In this document: positions 9,112 to 16,239 of the stretch, in pieces
Layout: every line of letters begins with the position of its first letter
How positions within the stretch are numbered: position 1 is the stretch's first letter
Source of the DNA: Dehalogenimonas sp. 4OHTPN
GTDB taxonomy: Bacteria > Chloroflexota > Dehalococcoidia > Dehalococcoidales > Dehalococcoidaceae
Direction: 5' to 3'
DNA: 64,000 bases
Assembly (NCBI RefSeq): GCF_040448695.1
Contig: NZ_CP159307.1
Span: 1,674,001-1,738,000 of the forward strand
Program-made: the position numbers and the translations under genes
The notes under the pieces: model-generated
Database searches by the model: none
Told to the model about the DNA's origin: nothing
What the model saw: the letters and a program-made list of their open reading frames with translations, nothing else

Positions 9112-9639
9112 TCAGAGTGAGCGCTTTTTGATGGCTCGCATAAACGCCAGCAGGCCTCGGATAATGTCGGTCGGTGTCGGCGGATTGCCTGGGATTTTGA
9201 AATCCACCGGAAGGATTTTGTCGGCTGCCCCCAGTACGGCATATGAATCTCTGACCAATCCGGTGCCGCAGGCGTCGTCGCCGACGGCGATAACCCAGCC
9301 CGGCTGGGGCATGGCCTCATAGGTCTTGCGCGCCGCTTCGGCTATGTTCAGGGTAACAGCCCCGGTGACGATGATGACATCGGCGTGGCGCGGCGAGGCG
9401 ACAAAACAGACGCCGAACCTTTCGACGTCGTAATACGGTGTGCCTAAATTGTTCAACTCGATTTCGGCGGCATTGTCCGACCCGGTATCCAGTTCCCTGA
9501 TTGCCAGGCTTCTGCCGAAGACCCGGTCGATCTCCCCCTTCAGCTCGAGTCCGATTTTTTCGAACTCCGACTCATTGAACACCAGCGCCGCCGCGCGTTT
9601 AGGTCCCAGGATGTTGCCGATAATTTGCGAAAGGCTCAT
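9112..9639 (-). CDS. HyfI/NuoB-like small subunit lacking the proximal Fe-S ligands
   Basis: 175 residues related to the small subunit (NuoB, HycG, HyfI) of complex I and group 4 hydrogenases, which normally holds the proximal [4Fe-4S] cluster. The fold motifs are kept: D-T-G-S, Y-D-V-E-R-F-G-V, S-P-R-H-A-D-V-I-I-V-T-G. However, the C-x2-C ligand pair (normally S-C-N-G-C-E) is S-D-N-A-A-E at residues 54-59, and the later G-D-C-A motif is G-D-D-A-C. The cluster is therefore unlikely to form. The ATG at 9639 overlaps the stop of the large subunit by 4 bases; the longer upstream frame is an antisense-free shadow of that gene. Last gene of the operon. Confidence 0.85.
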   Translation of the reverse strand: MSLSQIIGNILGPKRAAALVFNESEFEKIGLELKGEIDRVFGRSLAIRELDTGSDNAAEIELNNLGTPYYDVERFGVCFVASPRHADVIIVTGAVTLNIAEAARKTYEAMPQPGWVIAVGDDACGTGLVRDSYAVLGAADKILPVDFKIPGNPPTPTDIIRGLLAFMRAIKKRSL

Positions 9640-11210
9640 AGATCGTTCCCGGCGTATGACAGATTCATGCTCTTGTTGATCAGCGGAAAGTCCGGCACGA
9701 TGTTGCCGATGACCGCATGCTCCATCGCCAGCCAGTTGCTGAATGAAGCGGTGCGCGCCTTCCACCGGTCCAACCGGCCGTTTTTGAAAAAGACCCAGTG
9801 CAGGTTCTGGCCTCTGGCCGCTTCGACCGCCGCGGCGGCGTAACCGCTGCCGGGACGGCATTCAGCCCGCACCGGGCCGGTCTCCTCCAGGTTCACCGCA
9901 TCGCGGATGAGCCGCAGGGACTCCTCGATCTCGCCGGCCTTGACCTGGAAACGCCCCAGCACATCCCCCGCCTCGTCGGTCTGGATTTCCGGCTTCAGCT
10001 CCGAATACAGTCCGTAGGGGTGGTCAATCCGGTTGTCGATGCGGGCACCGGAAGCCCGGGCCACCGGCCCGGTCAGGTTCAACGGGGCTATCAGTTCCGG
10101 CTTGACTATCCCGGTCGTCTCCAGCCGGTCGATGACCCAAGCGGAGTTGTAAATGTCGTCGAGCGCGGCGTCGAAACGCGACAGGAAGCACTCGGCGTAT
10201 TCGTGGAGGTCTTCGAGGAAGTCCATCGGGATATCGCGGCTCACCCCGCCCGGGACGATAAATCCTTTAAGAAAGCGCGATCCAGTGAGTTCGGCGTTCC
10301 AGCGCAGTATCTCCTCCCGAAGGATGAAAAATGGGGCCGCGCCGGTCGGATAAGCTACGTCCACTACCATACCGGCCAGGTCGCCCAGGTGGCTGTAGAT
10401 GCGCTCCAGTTCAAGAGCCGCCGTCCGTAGCTCCCAGGCGCGCCGGGGTACAACGGTGCCAGCGACGCGTTCGATGGCCATAGCCAGGCCGCAGGCGTTG
10501 GCTGCGCTCTCGTCGCCGGAGACGCACTCCGCCAGCTGCACCGCCGCATTGGCCTCCCGGCCTTCGGCAAGTTTCTCAAGGCCGCGGTGCTTCCAGAAGT
10601 GGCGCGTCTCCAGGTTGAATATGGTCTCGCCGATGACGCTGAACCGGAAATGTCCCGGCTCGATGATGCCGGCGTGCACCGGCCCGACCGGTATCTGGTA
10701 GATGCCCTCACCCCCGAACTCCCTGAAGGCGTATTCGCGCTCCGGGGTGATCCTGGCCGGGACGACCTTGCCACCATCGAACGATTTCCGCAGCGGGTGG
10801 CAGCCGTCGGGATAAACCTCGTGCAGGAACAGCCGGCGGCGGTCGAAGGCGCCGTCGAACTCGATGCCGAAGCCGTCTGACACCTCCCGCTGGTAGTAGC
10901 TGGCAACAGGGAATTCGCTGGCGATGGACATACCGCGGTTGCCGGGCAGCCGCACCTCCAGGATGAATAACGCCGGGGCGCCCCGCTGCTCAAAGGCGTA
11001 GAAAAGGGTGAAACCCGGAGCCCCGAAAGCCTCGGCCGCCCACAGCCCGACAAGGACCACGCCGGGCTGCCTTTTCAGTTCCTCGGCCGCCTCGACCAGG
11101 GCTACGACGCTGATCGAAAGGTATCCCGTGCCGTCTACCCCGGTGCGGCTTCGCCCGTCGAAGCCTTTGGCGACAAGGTGGCTTTCAATGATTGTCATCA
11201 GTTCTGCCAT
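9636..11210 (-). CDS. HyfG/NuoCD-like large subunit lacking NiFe ligands
   Basis: 524 residues: an N-terminal NuoC-like (30 kDa) domain to about residue 165 fused to a NuoD-like (49 kDa) large-subunit domain, as in HycE/HyfG. H-R-G-L-E-K-L is present, but the following ligand motif E-R-V-C-G-I-C is E-C-V-S-G-D-E, and the C-terminal D-P-C-x2-C motif is replaced by N-K-S-M-N-L-S-Y-A. All four Ni-Fe cysteines are gone, so it cannot be a hydrogenase. It fits the group called energy-converting hydrogenase-related (Ehr) complexes. Starts 1 base after the upstream gene's stop. Confidence 0.88.
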   Translation of the reverse strand: MAELMTIIESHLVAKGFDGRSRTGVDGTGYLSISVVALVEAAEELKRQPGVVLVGLWAAEAFGAPGFTLFYAFEQRGAPALFILEVRLPGNRGMSIASEFPVASYYQREVSDGFGIEFDGAFDRRRLFLHEVYPDGCHPLRKSFDGGKVVPARITPEREYAFREFGGEGIYQIPVGPVHAGIIEPGHFRFSVIGETIFNLETRHFWKHRGLEKLAEGREANAAVQLAECVSGDESAANACGLAMAIERVAGTVVPRRAWELRTAALELERIYSHLGDLAGMVVDVAYPTGAAPFFILREEILRWNAELTGSRFLKGFIVPGGVSRDIPMDFLEDLHEYAECFLSRFDAALDDIYNSAWVIDRLETTGIVKPELIAPLNLTGPVARASGARIDNRIDHPYGLYSELKPEIQTDEAGDVLGRFQVKAGEIEESLRLIRDAVNLEETGPVRAECRPGSGYAAAAVEAARGQNLHWVFFKNGRLDRWKARTASFSNWLAMEHAVIGNIVPDFPLINKSMNLSYAGNDL

Positions 11211-11211
11211 A

Positions 11212-12690
11212 TTACCCCTGGAAGCCCAGATCGGCGATAATTACCTTCAAGGCATCACCCAGCCAGCCGGGCAGCCACACCCCCAGCGCCACCAGCAGTA
11301 CCAGAGAGGCGGCTATCGGCAGCCGCATCGCCGCGGGTGTGTCATAGCGTTCCATCCCGGCATCGCCGCCCTGGGTGAAAGCCCTGATCAGGTAGAAGCC
11401 AAAACCCGCCGCCGCCAGCAGGAACGCCGCCAGGACGGCAACGAACAGCGGCAGCGCCTGAGTCGCCGCAGCGACCAGGATGTTGAATTTGGCCAGGAAC
11501 ACTGGGGTGAGCGGCGCGCCGATGGCCGCCGCCGAACCGATGACCAGTCCCCAGGCCGCCAGCGGCTGCAGCCTGAATGGATCCTTAATGGCAAAAAACT
11601 TGTTGGAACCGTACTGCCGGTGGAAAATGCCGGCGGAGAAAAAGAGCAGCGCCTTGACCAGGGCGTTGCCCGCCTTGTGGAACAAGGCCCAGAAAAGGGC
11701 TGCCGGCGACCCGAGGCCGAAAGCCAGCAGGATCAGGCCTGACTGCTCTATGCCGGAGAAGGCAATCAGTTTCTTGGTATTCGTCCGGGAAATGAGAGCC
11801 AGGGCGGCCAGGAACAGGCTGGCGGTGCCGAAGGCTACCAGAAATGGATTAAGAAAGGCTTCGTCGCCGGCCCGGTGGCCCAGGGCCAGCAGCCGGAGGA
11901 TGGCGTACAGCCCCAGGTTTAAAACAGCGCCGGAAACCACGGCGACCACTGAAGGCGCCCGGACATAGACCGTCGGCAGCCAGGTATGGAACGGCGCGAT
12001 AGCCGCCTTGGCCCCGAAACCGATAAACAGAAAAACGAAGGCGAAGGTGTACATCCGGGGTTCGATGGAGGCCGCGGCGTCCATAAGGTCAGTCCAGTTG
12101 AGCGTGCCGCCGGGGACGACCTCCCTGGACAGGGCGAACAGGATGATGATGCCCACGAAGGCGAACAGCATCGCCGTGGACGTGACGAAGACATATTTCA
12201 GCGCCGCGGTGATGTTTTCCCGAGCTTTCAGGGTTACCACCAGCACCACCGAAAAGAGGGTGGACAGCTCGGCAAAGATCCACAGCAGCGCCAGGTTATT
12301 GGACAGAAAACCCATGACAATGACCAGCGGCAATAAAGCGAAAGCCCCGTAGAACAGACCCAGCAGGGAGCGCTCGATCTCACCCCGCTCCAGAAGCGAG
12401 CCGACATAACCCCGGGCGTATGTTGAGGCCAGTAAAAACAGCGCCGAAGTAATGACCGCCTCGTAAGCGCCCAGGGTATCGGCCATAAGATAGCCGTTAT
12501 CCATGAAGAAGCGCGGCAAGCCGGAAGCCGCCAGCCAGATTGATAACCCGAGATAAATCACCGCTTCGCCGAGGATCAGGCTGTTGAGCCGCCGGCCGTC
12601 GCCTCCGGGCTGAAACCGGCCGATCAAGAAGGCCGCGGCGGCGGCGATCACCGCCGGGACGGCATAGCCGAATATAATCAAGCTGTCCAT
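11212..12690 (-). CDS. HyfF/NuoN-like proton-channel subunit
   Basis: 492-residue polytopic membrane protein of the Mrp/NuoLMN antiporter family, closest to HyfF or NuoM/N in length. About 14 hydrophobic segments; conserved features include the F-H-T-W-L-P-T-V-Y-V-R-A-P-S helix-break region and K-K-L-I-A-F-S-G-I-E-Q-S. It would move protons or sodium across the inner membrane in the membrane arm. The ATG at 12690 shares a base with the stop of the upstream gene. The downstream large subunit starts 1 base after its stop. Confidence 0.9.
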   Translation of the reverse strand: MDSLIIFGYAVPAVIAAAAAFLIGRFQPGGDGRRLNSLILGEAVIYLGLSIWLAASGLPRFFMDNGYLMADTLGAYEAVITSALFLLASTYARGYVGSLLERGEIERSLLGLFYGAFALLPLVIVMGFLSNNLALLWIFAELSTLFSVVLVVTLKARENITAALKYVFVTSTAMLFAFVGIIILFALSREVVPGGTLNWTDLMDAAASIEPRMYTFAFVFLFIGFGAKAAIAPFHTWLPTVYVRAPSVVAVVSGAVLNLGLYAILRLLALGHRAGDEAFLNPFLVAFGTASLFLAALALISRTNTKKLIAFSGIEQSGLILLAFGLGSPAALFWALFHKAGNALVKALLFFSAGIFHRQYGSNKFFAIKDPFRLQPLAAWGLVIGSAAAIGAPLTPVFLAKFNILVAAATQALPLFVAVLAAFLLAAAGFGFYLIRAFTQGGDAGMERYDTPAAMRLPIAASLVLLVALGVWLPGWLGDALKVIIADLGFQG

Positions 12691-13367
12691 CAGTCTTCGA
12701 AGTCCAGACCCAGCTGGTTCAGGCGCTTGTGGAAAGCCTCGACGGATGAGTCGATGCCGAAAGCCAGCACCGCCGAAAGGACGATGATCATCAACAGGTC
12801 AATGATGATAAGAACTTCGATGATAAAGGGCATTTCGGCGATGAACATGGAAAACAGCAGCACGCCGTTTTCCATCGACAGGTAGCCGATAATCTTGGTG
12901 ATCACCTTGCGCCGGCTCATGATCACCATCATGCCCATGAGCGCCAGCGACACACCGATAACCGCGCCCAGGATGAACAGGCGGGATACCTCAAGCGCCG
13001 GCGAAAGGGCGCTGAACGCCTGATAGACCACGAAGAAAAGCCCGGTCGAAAGGATAATCGATCCGATGGGCGTCAGGTAATGAAACTCCAGGTCGCGCTT
13101 GATCGGCATGACCGCCAGCAGCCGCCTCAGGAAAAAGGGAATAATTATCACCTTCGAGGCGACGGTAAGTACCGCCATGAACAGCAGGCTGGCTGTACCC
13201 TCCCGGGTAAAGAGCGCCAGCGCTACCGCCGCCAGAATAGCCGACTGGGCGGCGTAGATTGAAAACAGCGAGACTAAAGAACGCTGGGTGATGATCAGAG
13301 CGGCCGAGCCCAGCACCAGCACCAGCAGTATTTTTATAAAGTCGTCGCCGATGATGAGTTCGTTCAT
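12690..13367 (-). CDS. HyfE-like membrane subunit
   Basis: 225 residues with about 7 hydrophobic segments, matching HyfE, the hydrogenase-4 membrane subunit distantly related to NuoK plus part of NuoJ. Typical features are the short N-terminal helix followed by charged loops such as R-R-L-L-A-V-M-P-I-K-R-D, and acidic residues inside membrane segments (F-I-I-E-V-L-I-I-I-D-L-L-M-I). It is a membrane-arm component. It overlaps the upstream NuoH-like gene by 4 bases. Confidence 0.88.
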   Translation of the reverse strand: MNELIIGDDFIKILLVLVLGSAALIITQRSLVSLFSIYAAQSAILAAVALALFTREGTASLLFMAVLTVASKVIIIPFFLRRLLAVMPIKRDLEFHYLTPIGSIILSTGLFFVVYQAFSALSPALEVSRLFILGAVIGVSLALMGMMVIMSRRKVITKIIGYLSMENGVLLFSMFIAEMPFIIEVLIIIDLLMIIVLSAVLAFGIDSSVEAFHKRLNQLGLDFED

Positions 13368-14311
13368 GCTAAAAGCTCGAAGACGATAGTCACAAAAGAG
13401 AAAAACAACGCCAGCATGAAGAAGCTGGGCAGCCGGAATAAGCGGATCTTAGCCATTAGCGACTCGAAAACGCCGATGACCGCCGCCAGCGCCAGGGCTT
13501 TAAGTCCGAAACTAAGCATTGAAACGGCGATGGCCGGCAAGGTCGCCTCGGCTGCCAGGCCCCAGGGGAAAATAATATTGATCAGGATAGCCATCAGCAC
13601 CGTTTGCTTGACGCCGTAGGAAAGTTCCATCAAAGCCAATTTCGGTCCGGTCTGTTCCAGGAGCATCGCTTCATGGATCATCGTCAGCTCCAAGTGAGTC
13701 TCGGGGTTGTCCACCGGGATCCGCGCCGTCTCGACGATGAGAACGATGAACAGGGACATGCCGATAAGGATAAGCGTCGGGTACTGCGCCAGCGAGGCGC
13801 CCAGAACAGCGGCGAACATCTCGGGAATGTCGGTCGTTTTGAGTACAAACGCCAGGGCTGCCGCAGAAGTGATGGTCACCGGCTCGATAATGGCCGAAAG
13901 GCTCATCTCGCGTGATGAACCCATGCCCCCGAAGGTGGAGCCGGCGTCGAGGCCGGCCAGCGCCATGAAGAATTTGGCCGAGACCAGAAGATATAAAAAC
14001 AGGATGACGTTGCCCGGGGCGCCCTCAGCGGACGGCAGGAACACCACCGGCACCATCGCCGCCGCCGCCAGCAGGAAACCGATATTGAGGTACGGCGCCA
14101 GGCGCATGATGAATGAAGTGTTCTGGGAGTAGATGATTTCTTTCTTCAGAAGTTTGGCCAGGTTGTAGTAGCCCTGGAGCAGCGGCGGGCCGACGCGCCC
14201 CTGGCTCAGCGCCTTGACCTTCTTGATCGCCCCGAGCAGCAGGGGAGAAATGGCGGTGATGAAGCCGATATTCAGGACGGCATACAGCAGGTATTCCGCC
14301 ATTACAGCCAC
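13364..14311 (-). CDS. HyfC/NuoH-like membrane subunit
   Basis: 315 residues, 8 predicted spans, matching the NuoH/HyfC/EchB subunit that joins the membrane arm to the peripheral arm. Conserved loops are visible: Q-G-R-V-G-P-P-L-L-Q-G near residue 36, and E-T-A-R-I-P-V-D-N-P-E-T-H-L-E-L-T-M-I-H-E about residue 205 (canonical R-x-P-x-D-x-P-E). The interface chemistry is thus kept even though the partner subunits lost their metal ligands. Overlaps the upstream gene by 10 bases and the downstream one by 4. Confidence 0.93.
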   Translation of the reverse strand: MAVMAEYLLYAVLNIGFITAISPLLLGAIKKVKALSQGRVGPPLLQGYYNLAKLLKKEIIYSQNTSFIMRLAPYLNIGFLLAAAAMVPVVFLPSAEGAPGNVILFLYLLVSAKFFMALAGLDAGSTFGGMGSSREMSLSAIIEPVTITSAAALAFVLKTTDIPEMFAAVLGASLAQYPTLILIGMSLFIVLIVETARIPVDNPETHLELTMIHEAMLLEQTGPKLALMELSYGVKQTVLMAILINIIFPWGLAAEATLPAIAVSMLSFGLKALALAAVIGVFESLMAKIRLFRLPSFFMLALFFSFVTIVFELLA

Positions 14312-16239
14312 CTCCCTACCGCCAGCAGCAGGATGACAATGACCACGAAAGCATAGAGGACGAAGGCGTCAAGGTCTACGTTATGCAGCCGGGAAACAAA
14401 TCCGGACAACCGCTGGACCAGCCTGGCAGCCGGTAGATAAATGCGCTCTTCGAAGAACTGCAGCGTGTGGATCTCGCCCGAACCCCCGGTGACGATGGAT
14501 TTGTCCCTGTCGGCATACTCCCGGCGCAGCGACTTTCTGGTTCTGAAGATCGGGCTGAATATGGTGACGATCGGCTCGGAAAAGCCGGAGGCGGTATATT
14601 CCATCTTGCTGTTCTGACGGTGGATGCCGCAGCCCCAGGTCTCAGAGAGGCGCACTCTCGACCCGGAACGCCGCACCAGGAAGACCGCCAGGCCGAAGAT
14701 CGCGCCGGTGACGGCGGTCACCGGCAGCAGGTCGATCAGCGGCAGGTCGAAGCCGGCGGCTCTGAATATCTGGGCGCTGAAGATACCCAGGACCACGCAG
14801 GCGGCGGCCAGTATCCCCGGGCCGATGAGCATCGCCCGGGGCGCCTCGACGGCTTGCTCCGCTTCTTTGGACCGCGGCAGCGCCAGAAATACGGCGCCGA
14901 AAGCTTTCACGAAACAGGCGGCGGCCAGGGCGCTCATCAGGGCAAAGGCGGCCAGGGCGGTGAATAAAAGCACCGCCGTCAGCGGGCTGGGCACCTGGAA
15001 AGCCCCCAGATAAGCCTGGAATAGCATCACTTCGGAAGCGAAGCCGTTTAAAGGCGGCAGGGCGGAGATGGCGGCGGCGCCGATAAGGAAGATGACCGCT
15101 GTGGCCGGCATCCGCTTCACCAGCCCGCCCATTTCTTCGATGTTGCGGCTGTGGGTGGCGGCCACCACCGAACCGGCGGTCATGAACAGCAGGCTCTTGA
15201 AGACGGCGTGGTTCAGGGTGTGGAATAATGCCCCGAAAAGCGAAAGGTCAGCCAGGGCGGCAAGCGAGTAGTGGCTGAAGATGACGTATAGCCCCAGCCC
15301 GATGACAATGATGCCGATGTTCTCGATGGAGTGGTAGGCCAGCAGCTTTTTGAGGTCGTGCTCTTTCAGAGCATAGATGACTCCCAGAACCGCCGACACG
15401 ATGCCGAAGACCAGCAGCACCGTACCCCACCACAGTTCGGGCGAGAGCACGTCCAGGAGTATCCGAACCAGGCCGTAGACCGCCACCTTTATCATCACCC
15501 CGGACATCAGCGCCGATATATTCGAAGGCGCCGCGGCGTGGGCGAAAGGCAGCCATTTGTGGAAGGGCATGACCCCGGCTTTGGTACCGAAGCCGATGAA
15601 AAAGGCGCCGAAGATGAGTCCGGCGGCGGCTGGAGAAAGGTCGGCGGCGCCGATGTTGAAGGTTCCCGTATATCGATGCAGCAGGAGAGCGCCCAGGAGC
15701 AGAAAGAGCGTCGAAAACTGGGTCATCACCAGATAATAGACCCCGGCTTTGGCCGTCTCGGCTCGGTCGCGCTCGTAGAGGACGAGGAGGAGCGAAGATA
15801 GAGACATCATTTCCCAGAAAAAAATGAGGGCGAAGAAGTTAGCCGAAGCCGCGACCAGCCCCATCGAAAGGATGAACACCGCCATGGCGGCGGTTAAAAA
15901 ATCCCGCTGGCGGCCGCCGGCGCCGTGCTCGATGTACTTCAGGGAATAAACGGCGGTGCACAAAGCCACCGCGGCAATGATCAAGCAGAAGAAAGCCGAC
16001 AGCCGGTCCAGGTGGAAAGCGAAAGCCAGATCCGGCGCCAGGCGGTAGAGGGTGAAATCAACCGCGGCGCCGTCGGCCAGGACACCCGCCGAGGCCGCCA
16101 TCCAGGCGACCGTGCCGGCGATGACCAGCGCCAGCGCTGCCTTCCGCCGCCCGGCGCCGGAGTCCCCGCCGCCGATGACGCCCGCCGCCGCCGCCAGCAG
16201 CATGAGCCCTGCCCCGCCGAGAAAGAGCGCCTGTATCAC
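14302..16239 (-). CDS. HyfB/NuoL-like proton-channel subunit
   Basis: 645 residues, first gene of the operon, a NuoL/MrpA-type antiporter subunit like HyfB. Motifs: F-H-K-W-L-P-F-A-H-A-A-A-P-S-N-I-S-A-L-M near residue 225, K-K-L-L-A-Y-H-S-I-E-N-I-G-I near 295, and the HyfB-specific tail with T-W-G-C-G followed by M-E-Y-T-A-S-G-F-S. The start is a GTG at 16239; it has only a weak ribosome site (ACAAGG adjoining the start), so initiation may be inefficient. The whole operon (HyfB, C, E, F, G, I order) lacks ferredoxin-type HyfA/HyfH subunits and HypA-F maturation genes nearby. Confidence 0.92.
   Translation of the reverse strand: MIQALFLGGAGLMLLAAAAGVIGGGDSGAGRRKAALALVIAGTVAWMAASAGVLADGAAVDFTLYRLAPDLAFAFHLDRLSAFFCLIIAAVALCTAVYSLKYIEHGAGGRQRDFLTAAMAVFILSMGLVAASANFFALIFFWEMMSLSSLLLVLYERDRAETAKAGVYYLVMTQFSTLFLLLGALLLHRYTGTFNIGAADLSPAAAGLIFGAFFIGFGTKAGVMPFHKWLPFAHAAAPSNISALMSGVMIKVAVYGLVRILLDVLSPELWWGTVLLVFGIVSAVLGVIYALKEHDLKKLLAYHSIENIGIIVIGLGLYVIFSHYSLAALADLSLFGALFHTLNHAVFKSLLFMTAGSVVAATHSRNIEEMGGLVKRMPATAVIFLIGAAAISALPPLNGFASEVMLFQAYLGAFQVPSPLTAVLLFTALAAFALMSALAAACFVKAFGAVFLALPRSKEAEQAVEAPRAMLIGPGILAAACVVLGIFSAQIFRAAGFDLPLIDLLPVTAVTGAIFGLAVFLVRRSGSRVRLSETWGCGIHRQNSKMEYTASGFSEPIVTIFSPIFRTRKSLRREYADRDKSIVTGGSGEIHTLQFFEERIYLPAARLVQRLSGFVSRLHNVDLDAFVLYAFVVIVILLLAVGRWL

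Follow-up and report, generated by a model that had tools for sequence, protein, structure and literature searches.

The window, a stretch of 64,000 nucleotides from Dehalogenimonas sp. 4OHTPN (contig NZ_CP159307.1), carries an operon on its reverse strand between positions 9112 and 16239. Six overlapping or abutting genes encode HyfB-, HyfC-, HyfE-, HyfF-, HyfG- and HyfI-like subunits, and the coordinates, strand and gene set given in the initial annotation all hold. The genes are listed in the order B-C-E-F-G-I, which is constant across the orthologous loci that hold all six.

14302..16239, reverse strand: HyfB/HycC-like antiporter-type subunit, 645 amino acids, GTG start; NCBIfam NF006418, 848 bits over cut-off
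13364..14311, reverse strand: HyfC/HycD/NuoH-like subunit, 315 amino acids; PF00146, 9e-33; PDB 7z0s_D, 2e-35
12690..13367, reverse strand: HyfE-like membrane subunit, 225 amino acids; NCBIfam NF008556, 2.7e-13, below cut-off
11212..12690, reverse strand: HyfF-like second antiporter-type subunit, 492 amino acids; NCBIfam NF006427, 511 bits, at cut-off
9636..11210, reverse strand: HyfG/HycE-like large subunit, 524 amino acids, NuoC+NuoD fold; PF00346 and PF00329; PDB 7z0s_E, 2e-64
9112..9639, reverse strand: HyfI/NuoB-like small subunit, 175 amino acids; PF01058, 3e-22

Five of the six subunits are assigned by Pfam (PF01058, PF00329 with PF00346, PF00361 twice, and PF00146). The HyfE-like subunit has only the weak NCBIfam match listed above and gave no match in a sequence search of the PDB; its position and conserved residues fit HyfE. 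Among solved structures, the E. coli formate hydrogenlyase (FHL) supplies the closest chains for subunits B, C and G, with HycC (7z0s_C, 9e-70) as the top chain for the HyfB-like subunit. The HyfF-like subunit is nearest to the antiporter-type chains of MBS and Mrp, and the small subunit to NuoB, HycG and MbhJ-type chains. The small subunit was taken to start at 9639, in agreement with its orthologues, and not at the longer open reading frame start of 9861. The operon holds no gene for a ferredoxin subunit, as had been stated from the outset, and no redox gene was found among its conserved neighbours.

The two subunits of the peripheral arm were aligned with their E. coli counterparts and with orthologues. 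The ligandless small subunit was scanned for across the genomes of 84,980 species, and 80 of the 103 confirmed loci were taken. Together with loci from further genomes, these gave alignments of 93 small and 84 large subunits, in which a few genomes are duplicated. The former metal sites are as follows:

10509..10520, reverse strand: SGDE in place of C-G-I-C, first Ni-Fe ligand pair of the large subunit (alignment with orthologues)
9639..9665, reverse strand: C-terminus NLSYAGNDL in place of DPCYSCTDR, second Ni-Fe ligand pair of the large subunit; no cleavable extension
9463..9483, reverse strand: GSDNAAE in place of G-x-C-N-x-C-E, ligands 1 and 2 of the small subunit (alignment with orthologues)
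9268..9282, reverse strand: GDDAC in place of G-x-C, ligand 3 of the small subunit (alignment with orthologues)
9178..9192, reverse strand: PGNPP in place of PGCPP, ligand 4 of the small subunit (alignment with orthologues)

In the large subunit, the four cysteines of E. coli HyfG/HycE are replaced by S231, E234, S518 and G521. This confirms that E-R-V-C-G-I-C has become E-C-V-S-G-D-E, as the initial annotation read it. G232, D233 and E234 are found in 84/84 orthologues and S231 in 81/84. The initial annotation also held that the C-terminal D-P-C-x2-C motif is absent. Both of its cysteines are indeed gone (S518 in 83/84 orthologues, G521 in 84/84), but the motif itself survives as a conserved remnant free of metal ligands, NLSYAG[N/T]DL, which forms the last residues of the protein. 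The cysteine near the first motif, C229, is not conserved among orthologues. His38 and Tyr87 of Thermus Nqo4, its quinone ligands, align to I183 and G232, and this argues against quinone chemistry at that site.

All four ligands of the small subunit are replaced as well (relative to E. coli HyfI, by D55, A58, D122 and N152), in line with the earlier reading of S-D-N-A-A-E for S-C-N-G-C-E. D55 is found in 93/93 small subunits, while position 58 is Thr, Ala, Pro or Val and never Cys. D121 is present in 91/93 (Asn in 2), D122 in 90/93 (Glu in 3, so that Asp or Glu fills 93/93) and N152 in 91/93 (Asp in 2, so that Asn or Asp fills 93/93). The protein has two cysteines in total, Cys78 and Cys124. 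C124, a Val in HyfI, is the sole invariant cysteine of both arm subunits (93/93) and, being single, cannot hold a [4Fe-4S] cluster. A replacement of the lost ligands by other cysteines such as C78 was considered and rejected, since C78 is not conserved and C124 alone is insufficient. By alignment, then, all eight canonical metal-ligand positions are replaced and the canonical metal sites are absent, and the former cluster site of the small subunit reads as an Asp/Asp/Asn site. The suspicion that the proximal cluster has been lost too, leaving no visible redox centre, is upheld in that no canonical metal site is left in either subunit.

The complex thus lacks both features of a group 4 [NiFe] hydrogenase, the two Ni-Fe-binding CxxC motifs and the ferredoxin-like HyfA/HyfH subunit, which is absent from the operon and its conserved neighbours. 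It lacks those of complex I (Nuo) as well: the quinone His/Tyr pair of the NuoD site is missing, as are the ligands of cluster N2.

The peripheral and membrane arms keep both their fold and their set of subunits. The predicted structures of the two peripheral-arm subunits are confident. The model of the large subunit (pLDDT 86.2) superposes on HycE of FHL with a Z of 43.7 and an rmsd of 2.5 over 499 residues. The model of the small subunit (pLDDT 87.5) superposes on NuoB and MbhJ chains with a Z of 17-18 and an rmsd of about 1.9. Across chains of complex I, Mbh and FHL, Z is 16-18 for the small and 40-44 for the large subunit. Among the least certain parts of the models are the ligand-1/2 loop of the small subunit, with a mean of 63 over residues 51-60, and, in the large subunit, residues 168-204.

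In the membrane arm, the antiporter-type Lys and Glu residues are conserved in 72-79 orthologues, and the description of the proton-channel subunits as intact is therefore sound. E143, K220, K251, K348 and E403 of the HyfB-like subunit are each kept in at least 95% of 72 orthologues. The HyfF-like subunit keeps E141, K228, K306 and K346 among its orthologues, and its K401 is Lys in 71/79 rows and Glu in 8/79. K72, E166, E184 and D190 of the HyfE-like subunit are conserved (77 rows). The HyfC-like subunit holds the remaining feature:

13655..13732, reverse strand: NuoH-like E-channel motif ETARIPVDNPETHLELTMIHEAMLLE; acidic residues retained, one Glu replaced by H206

E194, R197, D201, H206, E208 and E214 are found here in 73/73 rows and E219 in 72/73. 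The NuoH interface motif had also been called intact. This stands for the carboxylates but not for one Glu, which is fixed as His. H206 is peculiar to the clade (73/73 relatives), lies in the coupling path and takes the place of the Glu found in HyfC, HycD and NuoH.

At least 80 other genomes, drawn from both bacteria and archaea, share these replacements, and all six genes have a dN/dS of 0.02-0.14 when near relatives are compared. The replacements are kept in the Dehalococcoidales relatives, which answers the initial call to check other Dehalococcoidia. Within Dehalococcoidales, 15 of the 27 genomes searched carry the complex; in the rest of the class, of which 294 genomes were searched, it is present in two poor metagenome-assembled genomes (MAGs) only. 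It is absent from a complete genome of the window's own genus (G074) and from 11 other of the 27 Dehalococcoidales genomes, and is dispensable there. Among archaea, it is carried by 19 of the 31 Methanosarcina genomes searched (isolates among the loci include KYL-1, 2.H.T.1A.6 and DH2), by Methanoregula (including one complete genome, L150) and by Methanospirillum (including the isolate M. stamsii, L158). It is also found in Methanocella-like, Bathyarchaeota, Altiarchaeota, Aenigmatarchaeota, Woesearchaeota and Thermoplasmatota MAGs, some contigs of which may be mis-binned.

The ligandless group of Dehalococcoidales, methanogens and other archaea forms one clade with 100% support. The Dehalococcoidales sequences nest inside the archaeal ones, and at least one inter-domain transfer is therefore likely; the nesting under a distant root points to the direction from archaea to bacteria. 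Several separate transfers into Dehalococcoidales were not upheld, since a single clade is not rejected (p 0.19). One Woesearchaeota MAG contig (L121) is placed beside or inside Dehalococcoidales, through transfer or mis-binning.

Clustering of the flanks of about 90 loci gave no conserved partner gene and only lineage-specific synteny; across the lineages of this set, the operon is accompanied by no conserved ferredoxin, flavin or other redox gene. Nothing in these flanks could thus serve as the non-redox partner suggested in the initial annotation, and its idea of an antiporter or a regulatory arm is a proposal. In 13 Methanomicrobiales loci (L104, L122, L131 and L135 included), an alpha/beta-hydrolase-like gene lies directly downstream on the same strand, at about 60-80 bases; this neighbour is lineage-specific.

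Our best explanation, to which we give a probability of roughly 0.45, is that the window complex belongs to the Ehr branch of the complex I/group 4 hydrogenase superfamily and is free of metal. It would act as a redox-free secondary ion translocator, in which the former redox arm has become a carboxylate-lined structural or regulatory domain. With no visible electron path or carriers, it would be unable to pump by redox chemistry. The two antiporter-like subunits and the NuoH-like E-channel may instead provide ion exchange (H+/Na+ or H+/K+) or a gated H+ path. The arm would then serve as a cap. Its carboxylates would stand in for the negative charge once supplied by the cluster and would set the state of the E-channel or gate it, perhaps by taking up and releasing protons next to it or by binding a cation or small ligand. 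A [4Fe-4S](Cys)4 cluster in the 2+ state has a charge of about -2, which the replacing Asp residues would match, and we count this in favour of the cap role. The fixation of the replacements in 93 small and 84 large subunits under the low dN/dS, the constant gene order, the intact ion-path residues, the missing quinone ligands, the modelling of the arm subunits as FHL/complex I folds and the lack of a linked redox gene all speak for a redox-free translocator.

Methanosarcina genomes with the complex also have MrpA/MrpD-sized antiporter genes, possibly of other complexes; these apparent Mrp-type subunits would make a plain antiporter partly redundant, and we count them against an exchanger. Mrp-type PF00361 genes are missing from the window genome, which has another Na+/H+ exchanger; its three other antiporter-family genes all lie near its NuoD gene. 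A role as a simple stand-in for Mrp was rejected on account of the Methanosarcina subunits and this exchanger.

Stated more broadly, we think it fairly probable that this is a complex I-type machine, present in two domains, that operates without electron transfer and in which the coupling of arm and antiporters has been re-used for a non-redox trigger such as protonation, a cation or a metabolite. The complex could still depend on an unlinked redox partner or on a cofactor that is invisible in the sequence.

The arm pocket (D55, D121, D122, C124 and N152; S231-E234 and S518-D523) is very highly conserved, which points to some specific chemistry or binding in addition to its part as a cap. The complex might thus be a ligand- or metal-gated transducer, in which a hard cation or a small molecule is held by the Asp/Asn/Glu/Ser pockets and thereby drives or gates ion flow in the membrane arm. 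We regard this as a rather doubtful alternative with some substance. The replacements are specific (Asp; Asp/Glu; Asn/Asp; D-E in the large subunit) and almost totally conserved across two domains, and in other lineages whose small subunit has lost its ligands the same Asp and Asp/Glu recur, while the fourth position is Asp or Ser. However, no ligand or homologous binding site is known, and a structural filling of the cavity fits equally well.

It is unlikely that the complex is still a redox enzyme working through an unrecognised cofactor or partner. Ferredoxin reduction has been proposed for the ehrABCDLS cluster of M. hungatei (PMC4704411), and in Dehalococcoides mccartyi 195 the transcript of DET1570 ('hydrogenase, group 4, HycG subunit') has an edge to electron-donor supply (PMC5102406). 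The M. hungatei proposal appears to be based on homology only, and the arm subunits have no canonical ligands and a sole invariant cysteine, C124, with neither a ferredoxin subunit nor a linked redox gene.

Less probable still is an assembly or regulatory partner that has no transport of its own and binds Nuo, Fpo, Ech or a reductive dehalogenase complex. Nuo is the only other complex of the window genome with the same antiporter family, which would suit such a role, but the protonatable residues of both antiporter subunits and the E-channel would then be kept needlessly, and hosts from Woesearchaeota MAGs to Methanosarcina offer no obvious single partner. Decay of a hydrogenase operon or an error, for which the absence of the operon from the close relative G074 might speak, is refuted by the orthologues, with their low dN/dS and identical replacements in at least 80 further genomes; the frames of the window operon are all open. 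A sequencing error in the window, a caveat raised at the outset, is rejected on the same grounds.

It has long been asked how the arm of complex I drives ion pumping at a distance in the membrane. A natural complex with an arm, an E-channel and antiporters but no visible redox site would offer a clean control for the role that the arm plays without electrons. Because Methanosarcina has genetic tools and carries the complex in so many of its genomes, a functional test is practical.

The Mrp Na+/H+ antiporters are redox-free and have antiporter-like subunits from the same family as those of the window complex. In the window complex these subunits have intact Lys/Glu and may exchange Na+ for H+. 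Mrp has, to our knowledge, no NuoB/NuoD-like arm and no NuoH-like subunit, whereas the window complex keeps both. Its arm folds are shared with E. coli FHL-1 (PDB 7Z0S/7Z0T) and hydrogenase 4 (Hyf), but these contain Ni-Fe and several [4Fe-4S] clusters as well as ferredoxin-like subunits, and the window complex has none.

The name hydrogenase is probably a misnomer for this complex. A genome taken to be that of D. mccartyi strain 195 has three 49-kDa-type genes, one of which is the orthologue at 1.41 Mb, and the Hyc of this species (DET1570 being HycG) is almost certainly the same locus. Hyc was detected in the proteome of strain CBDB1 (PMC6113397) and is counted among the five hydrogenases of Dehalococcoides in reviews and models (PMC2930330, PMC8516407), yet it is without any hydrogenase ligand. 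One of the five would thus drop out of models of organohalide respiration.

Ehr is defined by the lost Ni-Fe ligands of its large subunit, and electron transfer is expected of it (PMC6349859, PMC10284858, PMC10432482, PMC4704411). The Ehr operons (ehrABCDLS; Geobacter, Nitrospira, M. hungatei Mhun_1817-1822) likewise have six genes and a large subunit without Ni-Fe ligands. The window complex shares both features: its large subunit is of the group 4-like type without Ni-Fe CxxC pairs, S231/E234 and S518/G521 standing in for the four Cys in nearly all of 84 rows, and its set B-C-E-F-G-I, matching ABCDLS, lies in one operon of conserved order. In the large-subunit tree, the window clade has the ordinary Ehr type as its sister (97/92). 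These Ehr-like neighbours retain SCNGC/GACA/PGCPP in the small subunit, whereas the N2-like [4Fe-4S] ligands are replaced in 93/93 of the window clade; such ligands are not stated to define Ehr. The M. hungatei ehr operon is the named orthologue of the window operon, as the ligandless small subunit of an M. hungatei MAG (L156) indicates, and this calls the ferredoxin-reducing role proposed for Methanospirillum Ehr into question.

Operons of the same type in other Chloroflexota vary. Both sites have Cys in L057 and L058. In L056, L059, L066 and L069 the large-subunit ligands are lost and the small-subunit ones kept, which fits ordinary Ehr. The reverse is seen in L050-L055, from other Chloroflexota classes, where the small subunit is ligandless (SDN, GTDAC/GDEAC, PGDPP or PGSPP) and the large subunit retains both CxxC-type pairs (e.g. 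CGAC, CYAC). A single loss of the small-subunit cluster across Chloroflexota is favoured by the small-subunit tree, which groups the losers (81/93), and rejected by the large-subunit tree (p 0.015). A divergent Ehr-like operon (L070, G001:C94) has lost both sites differently (SDGAV, GTAAC, PGTPP; VSGTA, LTQAG) and is possibly an independent case of double loss.

The Ni-Fe ligand loss in methanogen operons was known before: in 2009, the large subunit of the orthologous archaeal Pmh operon (Methanospirillum/Methanosarcina) was noted to miss its Ni-Fe cysteines (PMC2686161), and the available text of that report does not mention the cluster loss in the small subunit. Our search of the literature outside the main Ehr paper (doi 10.1016/j.bbabio.2012.09.012) found no published notice of this second loss. 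Because the complex is widespread, conserved and currently misannotated, it carries unusual weight as an Ehr variant.
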